In this document: positions 29,765 to 33,270 of the stretch, in pieces
How positions within the stretch are numbered: the first letter of the stretch is position 1
Layout: each line of letters begins with the position of its first letter
Source of the DNA: Candidatus Rifleibacteriota bacterium
GTDB lineage: Bacteria; Muiribacteriota; Ozemobacteria; Ozemobacterales; Ozemobacteraceae
Length of the DNA: 42,649 nucleotides
NCBI GenBank assembly: GCA_012520995.1
Contig: JAAYNI010000046.1
Span: 1-42,649, forward strand
Reading direction: 5' to 3'
The notes under the pieces: generated by a model
Database searches by the model: none
Seen by the model: only the letters and a program-made list of their open reading frames with translations
What the model was told of the DNA's origin: nothing
Translations under genes and position numbers: made by a program

Positions 29765-29856
29765 AAACACCCTCTGTACAACTGTTTAATTTTCAAGCAT
29801 ATAATGTGCGCAAAAATTAAACACAAAATAAAAACTGAGGGTGTTTTATTTTTTAG
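29765..29856 (+). terminator. Nested-stem terminator after rho
   Basis: An outer 10-bp stem (AAACACCCTC 29765-29774 with GAGGGTGTTT 29837-29846) encloses a perfect 11-bp inner stem (TGTTTAATTTT 29783-29793 with AAAATTAAACA 29813-29823). The outer stem runs into TTTATTTTTT. It starts five bases after the rho stop codon. Confidence 0.7.
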
Positions 29857-29939: not shown

Positions 29940-29956
29940 TTGGCACACAACTTGCT
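29940..29956 (+). promoter_or_regulatory. Sigma-54 (RpoN) promoter
   Basis: T-TGGCAC-ACAAC-TTGCT fits the sigma-54 consensus TTGGCAC-N5-TTGCW with its fixed -24/-12 spacing. The -24 GG is at 29942-29943 and the -12 GC at 29954-29955. The expected transcription start is near G29967. The upstream 60 bp are very AT-rich, with an AATATTT/AAATATT inverted repeat, as often seen for bending sites. No rpoN gene or activator is in the window. Confidence 0.72.
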
Positions 29957-29966
29957 ATTATTGAGG

Positions 29967-30048
29967 GTGCACTGCACAACTAATTCGTCAGTTGTCTTCA
30001 ATCATTCCTTTCCTTGATAAGGGCTGCGCATCAGCAGCTCTTTTTTTT
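29967..30048 (+). ncRNA. Candidate sigma-54-dependent small RNA (~80 nt)
   Basis: A compact transcription unit runs from the predicted sigma-54 start to an intrinsic terminator, with no open frame behind a ribosome-binding site. The 5' part can form an ACAACT/AGTTGT stem-loop (29976-29995) or a competing GTGC/GCAC hairpin. The middle (29996-30018) is unstructured and pyrimidine-rich (ATTCCTTTCCTTGAT), resembling an anti-Shine-Dalgarno seed. The 3' end is a GGGCTGC/GCAGCTC stem (30021-30040) followed by eight T residues. This architecture is typical of trans-acting regulatory sRNAs. Expression is unproven. Confidence 0.55.
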
Positions 30049-30160: not shown

Positions 30161-30240
30161 CTTTTAATAAAAAAGACCATAGTAGTCTGTTTTCTCTAAA
30201 TGTTTATTATCGGACAGATTTTTTTCTATCCACAGATAGA

Positions 30241-30300
30241 CACAGATAACACAAATGGGATTTAAGCATAGCTTAAAATCCCATTCGTGTTATCTGTGGA
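30241..30300. repeat. Long near-perfect hairpin
   Basis: The 27-nt left arm (30241-30267) pairs with 30271-30300 around an ATA loop, with a single one-base bulge and one mismatch. The arms contain CACAGATAACAC and GGGATTT(T)AAGC. ATCCACAGATAACAC-type sequences recur in intergenic repeats of many bacteria. Confidence 0.75.
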
Positions 30301-30301
30301 T

Positions 30302-30435
30302 AAAAAAAACGGGGGTGTTACCCCCGGTTAAGAAAGTTGTAATAAATTGAAGCATTCTGTTACCGCTCCAGTATTGCGAGCGGCGAACCTTTCACTTTGC
30401 CCCCCTCTTGGAGACTAATATTGTCTCCTTACTCT
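30302..30435 (-). ncRNA. Candidate small RNA on the minus strand
   Basis: On the minus strand a perfect TATAAT (30447-30442) is followed about 7 nt later by a ~134-nt stretch with three stem-loops. These are GGAGAC/GTCTCC (30428-30410), CCGCTC/GAGCGG (30383-30363) and a CGGGGGT/ACCCCCG terminator stem (30326-30310) followed by eight U. No minus-strand gene lies downstream before rho, so a cis-acting leader is unlikely. The -35 region is weak. I do not recognise the RNA as 6S, SRP, RNase P or tmRNA. Confidence 0.4.
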
Positions 30436-31202: not shown

Positions 31203-32198
31203 TTATTTTGCTTTGCGAAGCAGCTCTGCTGCATCTTCAGGAGGAGTCGGATTTATATAGAATCCTGAGCCCCATTCGAAACCAGCTGTTTTAGTCAGCT
31301 TAGGCATAAGAGAAAGATGCCAATGATAGTAGTCCTTATAAGCATCTGAACAAGGAGAAGTATGCAAAACAAAGTTATAAGGCTGCTCCGGCAAGAGAGC
31401 ATTCATTTTGATTAAAGCTTCTCTAAGAGCATCCGCAAAAGAGGCAATATTATCAGTCTCGATATTTTCAAAAAAAGGCAAATGCTGCTTAGGAGTTATC
31501 TCCATTTCAAAAGGAAATCGTGAAGCAAAAGGACAAAATACAACAAATCCATCATTTTCATATACTAAACGGCTTGCTGTTCTCAATTCTTGTTTAACTA
31601 TGTCACAGAAAAGACAGCGGTCATGATATCTAAAATATTCTCTGGCTCCCTCTATTTCTTCTTCCACTCTTTTTGGGATAATAGGAGTCGCAATAATCTG
31701 AGAATGTTCATGCGAAACACTGGATACTGCCAAACCAGAGTTTTTTATAATCATGAAATGCTTGTAGCTGGGATTTTTTTTGATTTCAAGCAATCTTTGT
31801 TTATATGCCCAAATTATTTCTTTAACCTGCTCTAATTCTGCTGTAGCAATAGAATCATAATGCCCGGGAAACTCTATCACCATTTCATGTACACCCAAGG
31901 CGTTCATCGCATCAAACATGCCAAAACCTTCCCGGTTCGCATCTGTACATGGAGTTAAAATAGGGGCTATGTCTGGAACAATCCTTACCCACCAGCCTTT
32001 TGTATTAGCTTCCGTTCCTGCTTTTCTAAAAGCTAAGACTTCGCCTGAAGTCATATGCTCATTGCCTTCACAAAAAGGGCAATGAGTTATATCTTCCTCT
32101 ATTTTTGGAGGAGATTTGAAATCCGAAGGGCGTTTTCCTCTTTCAGGAGAAATAATAACCCACTGATTCAAAACAGGATCTTTTCTTAATTGAGGCAC
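31203..32198 (-). CDS. GalT-family nucleotidylyltransferase, variant HEH active site
   Basis: This 331-residue HIT-superfamily protein resembles galactose-1-phosphate uridylyltransferase. It has the zinc pair C40-x2-C43 (CPFC), a second CLFC pair, and the active-site region VSHEHSQIIATPIIP near residues 157-171. In GalT the nucleophilic His lies in an HPH motif. Here the middle Pro is Glu, while both His residues remain. It is a tandem paralogue of the gene upstream (32206-33210), which keeps HPH. The GTG start is preceded by AGGAG, which lies inside the last codons of the upstream gene, so the two are translationally coupled. It may use a different sugar phosphate or nucleotide. Confidence 0.85.
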   Translation of the reverse strand: MPQLRKDPVLNQWVIISPERGKRPSDFKSPPKIEEDITHCPFCEGNEHMTSGEVLAFRKAGTEANTKGWWVRIVPDIAPILTPCTDANREGFGMFDAMNALGVHEMVIEFPGHYDSIATAELEQVKEIIWAYKQRLLEIKKNPSYKHFMIIKNSGLAVSSVSHEHSQIIATPIIPKRVEEEIEGAREYFRYHDRCLFCDIVKQELRTASRLVYENDGFVVFCPFASRFPFEMEITPKQHLPFFENIETDNIASFADALREALIKMNALLPEQPYNFVLHTSPCSDAYKDYYHWHLSLMPKLTKTAGFEWGSGFYINPTPPEDAAELLRKAK

Positions 32199-32205
32199 AG
32201 AACAA

Positions 32206-33210
32206 TCACTCCTGAGTTTTGGCGTTAAGTAAATATGATGCAGCTTTTTCTGGCGTTATAGGATTAATATAAAAGCCAGAACCCCATTCGAAAGCCTTGA
32301 TTTTACTGAGGCGCGGCATAATCTCTATATGCCAGTGATAATAGTCGGCAGCTTGATCTCCACAGGGCGATGTGTGAATGACATAATTGAACGGAGGATT
32401 TTTCAAAGTAACGTTCAGCTTCATTATTACAGCTTTCAAGGTCTCTGCCAGCCCTTTAATCTCACGCTCTTCTATATCGCCGAAAGAGTCTTTATGATCC
32501 TTGGGAGCTATCCAAGTTTCGAAGGGGAACCTTGAAGCAAAGGGAGTAAAAGCAACAAAATTTTCGTTTTCGTACACAATCCTTTCGCCTTGAGCAATTT
32601 CTTGGCGAATGATGTCACAAAAAACGCATCTCTCTTTGTAATAATAGTAGTTTTTTGCTCCCTCAAGTTCTTCCATTGCTCTTTTAGGAACTATCGGCGT
32701 GGCTATCAGCTGCGAGTGAGGGTGATCCAAGCTTGCGCCTGCAGCGGCACCGCTATTTTTGAAAATAAGAATATATCTGAACCTGCGATCTCTGCGTAAA
32801 TCCTTATATCTGTCTGCATAGGCAGTCAAAATCAAAGCCACATGTTCTTCGCTGTATGTATCAAAATTGGCATTGTGAATCGGGCTTTCGATTATGACTT
32901 CATGGGCACCTACGCCATTCATCATGTCATAAACTCCGATGCCAGCACGGTCAAGCTCACCTTCGATCTGAAGAGCCGGAAATTTATTTGGGACTACACG
33001 GACTTCCCATCCAGCTTCATTAGGCAAAGTTCCCTGTTTACGGTAAGACATAACTTCAGGTGTAGTCATAGGTTCATTGCCTTCGCAAAAAGGACATACC
33101 GAAACCTGCTTTGGCGCAGGAGGAATTATCAGATCCTCAGGCTTATTATCTTGTTCGTGAAGAATAATAACCCATCTTTTGGCTACGGGATCTTTACGCA
33201 GCTGAGGCAT
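32206..33210 (-). CDS. galT: Galactose-1-phosphate uridylyltransferase (GalT family)
   Basis: This protein of about 334 residues belongs to the GalT branch of the HIT superfamily, which swaps UMP between UDP-glucose and galactose-1-phosphate. It has zinc-binding C39-x2-C42 (CPFC), a second CVFC pair and the intact catalytic motif DHPHSQLIATP near residues 160-170. Length and motifs are normal. The ATG at 33210 has AAGGAG eight bases upstream; the TTG just before it is not needed. No galK or galE is adjacent, so the exact substrate is uncertain. It is followed 7 bp later by the HEH paralogue. Confidence 0.9.
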   Translation of the reverse strand: MPQLRKDPVAKRWVIILHEQDNKPEDLIIPPAPKQVSVCPFCEGNEPMTTPEVMSYRKQGTLPNEAGWEVRVVPNKFPALQIEGELDRAGIGVYDMMNGVGAHEVIIESPIHNANFDTYSEEHVALILTAYADRYKDLRRDRRFRYILIFKNSGAAAGASLDHPHSQLIATPIVPKRAMEELEGAKNYYYYKERCVFCDIIRQEIAQGERIVYENENFVAFTPFASRFPFETWIAPKDHKDSFGDIEEREIKGLAETLKAVIMKLNVTLKNPPFNYVIHTSPCGDQAADYYHWHIEIMPRLSKIKAFEWGSGFYINPITPEKAASYLLNAKTQE

Positions 33211-33270
33211 CAAAATCTCCTTCTAGAATTGTCTGAAGAATGACAAGACAGTTCTTAAAAAGTGTTAATG

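Follow-up and report, generated by a model that had tools for sequence, protein, structure and literature searches.

A conserved predicted small RNA with a sigma-54-type promoter and a proposed anti-Shine-Dalgarno loop, usually found downstream of hfq in the Ozemobacteraceae

Overview

We describe an element of a riflebacterial genome that represents a new family of RNAs, although RNAs of its general kind are already known. We consider it probable that this element encodes a trans-acting regulatory RNA, switched on by sigma-54 and an activator and probably assisted by Hfq, which would mask ribosome-binding sites through its CU-rich loop UUCCUUUCCU. The evidence comprises a -24/-12 promoter and a loop that hardly change among relatives, hairpins and a terminator that are maintained while their sequences vary, and a usual position directly behind hfq.

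A predicted small RNA with a canonical -24/-12 promoter

The window analysed here, by which we mean the whole stretch of 42,649 nucleotides, comes from a member of the Ozemobacteraceae. A first-pass annotation of it had described a sigma-54 promoter followed by a small RNA, and direct inspection of the sequence recovered every element of that description in its place (Table 1), including the unpaired CU-rich stretch and the terminator. The promoter has the exact spacing that had been claimed for it, and from the positions of its GG and GC a transcription start near 29967 is therefore predicted. A consensus scan found no sigma-70-like site at the promoter location. In the ORF check of the window, no open frame of at least 100 codons crossed the RNA. 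The string TTGGCACNNNNNTTGCW has two exact copies in the whole 2.84-Mb genome, the second of which falls inside an open frame of 304 codons carried by the opposite strand.

When 23 homologous promoters were aligned on their -24/-12 elements, GGCA-N6-TTGC proved invariant, with the GG and GC kept at fixed spacing, as in a sigma-54-dependent small RNA gene. The promoter bases are 96% identical across these sequences, versus 52% for the five-base spacer and about 50% for the flanks, and this pattern is as expected from selection acting on a sigma-54 promoter.

Table 1. Positions in the window of the predicted RNA and its associated signals.
Feature	Position	Strand	Basis and detail
Candidate activator (enhancer-binding protein) site TGCGCAAAAATTAAACA	29807-29823		7 of 8 positions of TGNNCA-N5-TGNNCA
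Sigma-54 (-24/-12) promoter TGGCAC-N5-TTGCT	29941-29956	+	Exact consensus; conservation in homologues; TTGGCAC-ACAAC-TTGCT at 29940-29956, GG at 29942-29943, GC at 29954-29955
Predicted small RNA, ~80 nt	29967-30048	+	Start 12 nt from the C of the -12 element; end within the T run
5' hairpin	29976-29995	+	ACAACT (29976-29981) with AGTTGT (29990-29995) in this copy; CUG-ACGA/UCGU-CAG in most relatives
Near-invariant core AUCA-UUCCUUUCCU-UGAU	30001-30018	+	Weak 4-bp stem with 10-nt CU-rich loop; CU-rich stretch ATTCCTTTCCTTGAT at 30004-30018
Intrinsic terminator AAGGGCTGC-gcatca-GCAGCTCTT plus T run	30019-30048	+	Sequence and consensus terminator scan; arms within 30019-30042, then T up to 30048

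Secondary structure and sequence variation among the copies

The predicted fold of the RNA is more stable than that of dinucleotide-shuffled sequences (z = -2.76), and most copies adopt the same plan of a 5' hairpin, an AUCA/UGAU stem carrying the ten-base loop, and the terminator. The 5' stem proposed in the first-pass annotation is the minimum-energy reading of the window copy alone; it stands for that copy, whereas the homologues use a different pairing (Table 1). Across 20 distinct sequences, 91.6% of the alignment cells pair, and 11 of the 19 base pairs show changes on both sides; these fall in seven of nine pairs of the terminator helix and in four of ten pairs of the 5' helix, where each was seen in only one or two sequences. 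The resulting covariation score was 0.463, compared with 0.214 for shuffled and at most 0.121 for slid alignments, values to be read with the knowledge that the alignment was fitted to the model, and hence leans towards the structure, and that the signal lies mostly in the terminator.

The segment AUCAUUCCUUUCCUUGAU is nearly invariant even in copies with a rewritten 5' hairpin and a terminator altered by compensatory pairs. Two copies (genomes G006 and G013) have a longer and different 5' hairpin, and in the divergent copy of G007 (locus L107) only AUCAUUCCUUUCCUUGAU and the hairpin plan are left, the 5' hairpin being rewritten and the core kept. The copy of G001 (L067) contains a large insertion in the terminator loop, and its stem GACCGCAT/ATGCGGTC, its T run and its seed are all intact; the insertion, noted in the stretch from about position 810 of that locus, itself folds.

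Distribution within the phylum

A DNA search located the element in 20 of 22 genomes of the same family, counting the host genome, and a pattern search of named genomes returned 20 stretches, mostly titled Riflebacteria, Ozemobacter or Ozemobacteraceae. From 18 copies we built a covariance model and ran it over 40 genomes of the phylum; the structure behind it had the wrong terminator register, yet the model's matches include all known copies. The model detected the RNA, as one copy each, in 22 of the 24 family genomes, with E-values down to 5e-20 and with the window copy matched at 29967-30047 (E = 2.8e-16). The two family genomes lacking a match are only 67% and 82% complete, and the model found no copy in any of the 16 genomes of the phylum outside the family. 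Related genomes are non-independent samples, and these conservation figures overstate the count of independent events.

No match in the window exceeded the gathering threshold of any Rfam family, the best weak one being suhB/mmgR at 21 bits where 41 are needed, and a full-text literature search combining Riflebacteria with small RNA returned no paper.

Two public records titled Candidatus Methylomirabilis and Erysipelotrichia (L051 and L063) also carry the RNA next to an Ozemobacteraceae-type hfq, and their titles therefore look wrong. A separate observation concerns the seed, which recurs together with a following terminator (TCATTCCTTTCCTTGG..GGCCCGCC) on the minus strand near position 1474 of L202 (G011, contig C114) and also in L131; this second copy lies directly 3' of the stop codon of a gene resembling a PHA synthase or hydrolase, and may be a paralogue or decoy derived from a 3'UTR, or due to chance.

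Genomic neighbourhood

In 18 of 22 genomes hfq is the gene immediately upstream of the RNA and shares its strand, with a few hundred bases between them. It lies less than 1 kb from hfq on the other strand in G005 and G012, and about 4 kb away in G006. In the host genome the two are on different contigs, the RNA standing behind rho and near flgI-flgJ, and the host hfq locus (L186) carries no copy. Among the matches listed, rho is on a contig other than that of the RNA in the 18 relatives having both, and the position behind rho would most simply be explained as a relocation. The other families of the phylum that were examined showed no RNA of similar type next to hfq.

The proximity to flgI-flgJ had been taken as a possible link to motility, an idea that we rejected. 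In the relatives the RNA is found by hfq, away from rho and from flagellar genes; because the flgI-flgJ-rho placement is peculiar to the host genome, it gives motility no support, and a conserved linkage to flagellar genes, as would mark a flagellar regulatory RNA, was not found. That the RNA usually follows hfq suggests a link with Hfq-based regulation, and not with flagella.

Other features of the window were noted as well. A long near-perfect inverted repeat (TATCCACAGATA..CACAGATAACACAAATGGGATTT and complement) at 30220-30309 resembles an intergenic repeat; after it, at 30310-30326, comes another hairpin, whose T run lies on the minus strand. Two adjoining galT-like (galactose-1-phosphate uridylyltransferase) paralogues occupy 31203-33213 on the minus strand.

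Protein partners and a candidate activator site

The host genome encodes RpoN (PF04552, at G000:C89:30635), as do most of its relatives, and contains 12 matches to the sigma-54 activator domain (PF00158), about seven of them strong; the weaker ones are read as generic AAA proteins, because the control search gives matches in every genome. Both rpoN and enhancer-binding proteins are encoded in the genome that carries the RNA, as for a sigma-54-dependent small RNA. The genome also has two Hfq-like genes, and the combination of hfq with a Rho-independent terminator and U tail is as expected for an Hfq-dependent trans-acting small RNA. Most family genomes contain a second Hfq-like domain, which is more divergent and frequently belongs to a longer open frame (in the host at G000:C27:124171).

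De novo motif discovery in the DNA upstream of the relatives' promoters revealed a 17-bp palindrome, TGNNCA-N5-TGNNCA, at 91-93 bp and 17-20 bp upstream of the GG, with extra copies at 117 bp in some genomes. Perfect sites number 8 versus 0.06 expected in shuffles, a statistic that overstates the independent evidence since the genomes are related. The spacing is kept in GC-rich and AT-rich members while the rest of the sequence differs; the pattern is absent from three copies. The recurrent palindrome is a likely candidate for an activator site. The counterpart in the window is weaker than the relatives' copies and stands 118 bp upstream of the promoter GG, where it shares sequence with an inverted repeat (29783-29823) that forms part of the probable rho terminator; for these reasons of position and overlap we regard it as doubtful.

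In three genomes the strict palindrome occurs at 13 distinct sites, four of them at the RNA, numbers that hint at a dedicated activator. A wider activator regulon was sought among the other nine sites and rejected, as they lack a convincing sigma-54 promoter.

One-mismatch -24/-12 sites were also seen elsewhere. Two are intergenic, one before a small heat-shock-like gene (L086, G000:C41:105188) and one before a PTS IIA-like gene (L094, G000:C62:91073) situated some 600 bp beyond a sigma-54 activator domain (C62:89977). The third, on the minus strand of L081 from position 1500, precedes two similar very short frames starting MFDVSILVFF and MFDMSILVFF.

Searches for mRNA targets

The loop UUCCUUUCCU is complementary to the Shine-Dalgarno-like sequence AGGAAAGGAA and stays fixed while the stems change, and we propose that it acts as an anti-Shine-Dalgarno seed. 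Pattern searches for targets within the family yielded no conserved mRNA target. Recurrent 15-nt matches were found in relatives but lie away from start codons, and AAGGAAAGG is only mildly enriched before ATG and is Shine-Dalgarno-like anyway.

A narrow antisense regulator, pairing at length with one or two mRNAs instead of broadly with Shine-Dalgarno sequences, would account for the roughly 29 nt conserved in most members, which is more than a 10-nt loop needs. The best new candidate of this kind in the host genome is the start region of arginine deiminase, which pairs over 17 of 20 nt (-16.4 kcal/mol); this complementarity is weak or absent in relatives, and the gene was rejected as a target. 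The hfq mRNA was discarded as well, its start regions pairing inconsistently at -7 to -17 kcal/mol. Searching with the 21-nt complement at up to three mismatches mostly returns the RNA itself, and no site recurs at start codons across the family. Taken with these results, such a narrow role seems to us decidedly improbable.

Discussion

The RpoN-controlled regulatory RNA with a seed against ribosome-binding sites, as first proposed, is well supported by the conserved promoter, seed, hairpins and terminator, together with rpoN. Observations that could have spoken against it, namely a genome lacking rpoN or a lack of conservation of the -24/-12 bases or stems, were looked for and not encountered. 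In the proposed mechanism, an enhancer-binding protein on the palindromes would switch the RpoN-polymerase on, and an RNA of about 80 nt would be made as its own transcript. Hfq, acting on the 3' hairpin and the U tail, would stabilise it, and UUCCUUUCCU would pair with the purine-rich, AGGAAAGGAA-like Shine-Dalgarno sequences of several mRNAs, blocking ribosome binding.

Several other readings were weighed against this one. A sigma-54-dependent RNA that titrates a protein, either Hfq or another RNA-binding protein, instead of pairing with mRNAs would fit the single near-invariant loop, the usual linkage to hfq and the lack of a conserved target in the pattern searches. Known sponge RNAs carry repeated binding motifs, and one short loop per RNA would make a poor sponge; the complementarity of the invariant loop to Shine-Dalgarno sequences also argues against titration. 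We therefore judge it unlikely, despite the precedents of CrcZ, which titrates Hfq (PMC4063720), and GlmY, which binds RapZ (PMC6075780). The polysaccharide deacetylase-like gene that follows on the same strand in many relatives could suggest that the RNA is no free small RNA but a leader or attenuator acting on its downstream neighbour; given that the downstream gene varies between genomes and is convergent in the window, and that every copy of the RNA ends in a strong terminator, we give this very little credence. Least credible of all is a functional minus strand encoding the mini-gene AAGGA-AAGGA-ATG-ATT-GAA-GAC-AAC-TGA (MIEDN): a good Shine-Dalgarno sequence and ATG are present on that strand in 22 of 23 members, but L067 has lost the start codon (ATA), in L107 the frame reads on with another sequence, and it is the plus strand that holds the conserved promoter as well as the terminator T run.

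The trans-acting regulator that we favour has functional counterparts elsewhere. CJnc230 (FlmE) of Campylobacter jejuni is an RpoN-linked small RNA of similar size that represses mRNAs and has a CCUU motif between two stem-loops (PMC11187230); it is flagellar and processed from the flgE mRNA, whereas the window RNA has an apparent sigma-54 promoter of its own and, in most relatives, sits by hfq, and the two are compared by description, with no claim of homology. The alpha-r14/NfeR1 RNA of Sinorhizobium represses mRNAs at the start region through ultraconserved anti-Shine-Dalgarno loops on sequence-variable stems (PMC10746234), a likeness to the conserved loop on variable stems seen here; it has three CCUCCUCCC loops, a sigma-70 promoter, 123 nt and no dependence on Hfq, in contrast to one UUCCUUUCCU loop, a sigma-54 promoter and about 80 nt. 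The Qrr RNAs of Vibrionaceae are sigma-54-driven with two palindromic activator sites upstream (PMC10162802), an arrangement for which the window RNA family offers a candidate parallel, with TGNNCA-N5-TGNNCA in place of the LuxO site TTGCAWWWTGCAA. GlmY of E. coli likewise combines a sigma-54 promoter with upstream activator sites; it is a decoy for RapZ that does not bind Hfq (PMC6075780), and we saw no sequence relation to the window RNA. These four RNAs act in ways resembling the one proposed here; we claim kinship with the window RNA for none of them, and no Rfam family reaches its threshold.

A bolder version of the favoured reading makes the RNA a family-wide master riboregulator, with a dedicated enhancer-binding protein whose TGNNCA-N5-TGNNCA sites serve mainly one promoter, with inheritance together with hfq as a unit, and with global masking of AGGAAAGG-type ribosome-binding sites. 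We advance this tentatively, as a possibility with odds well below even; if true, it would amount to an independently evolved Qrr-like switch, physically coupled to the gene of its chaperone.

Neither the Rfam matches to the window nor the open literature searched contains a small RNA of Riflebacteria. This RNA, with a promoter and loop that stay fixed amid changing sequence and with a single copy per genome, offers a way into sigma-54 and post-transcriptional control in a phylum for which metagenomes are the main source of knowledge, and its usual place behind hfq raises the testable question of whether joint function is what holds the RNA and the chaperone gene together.
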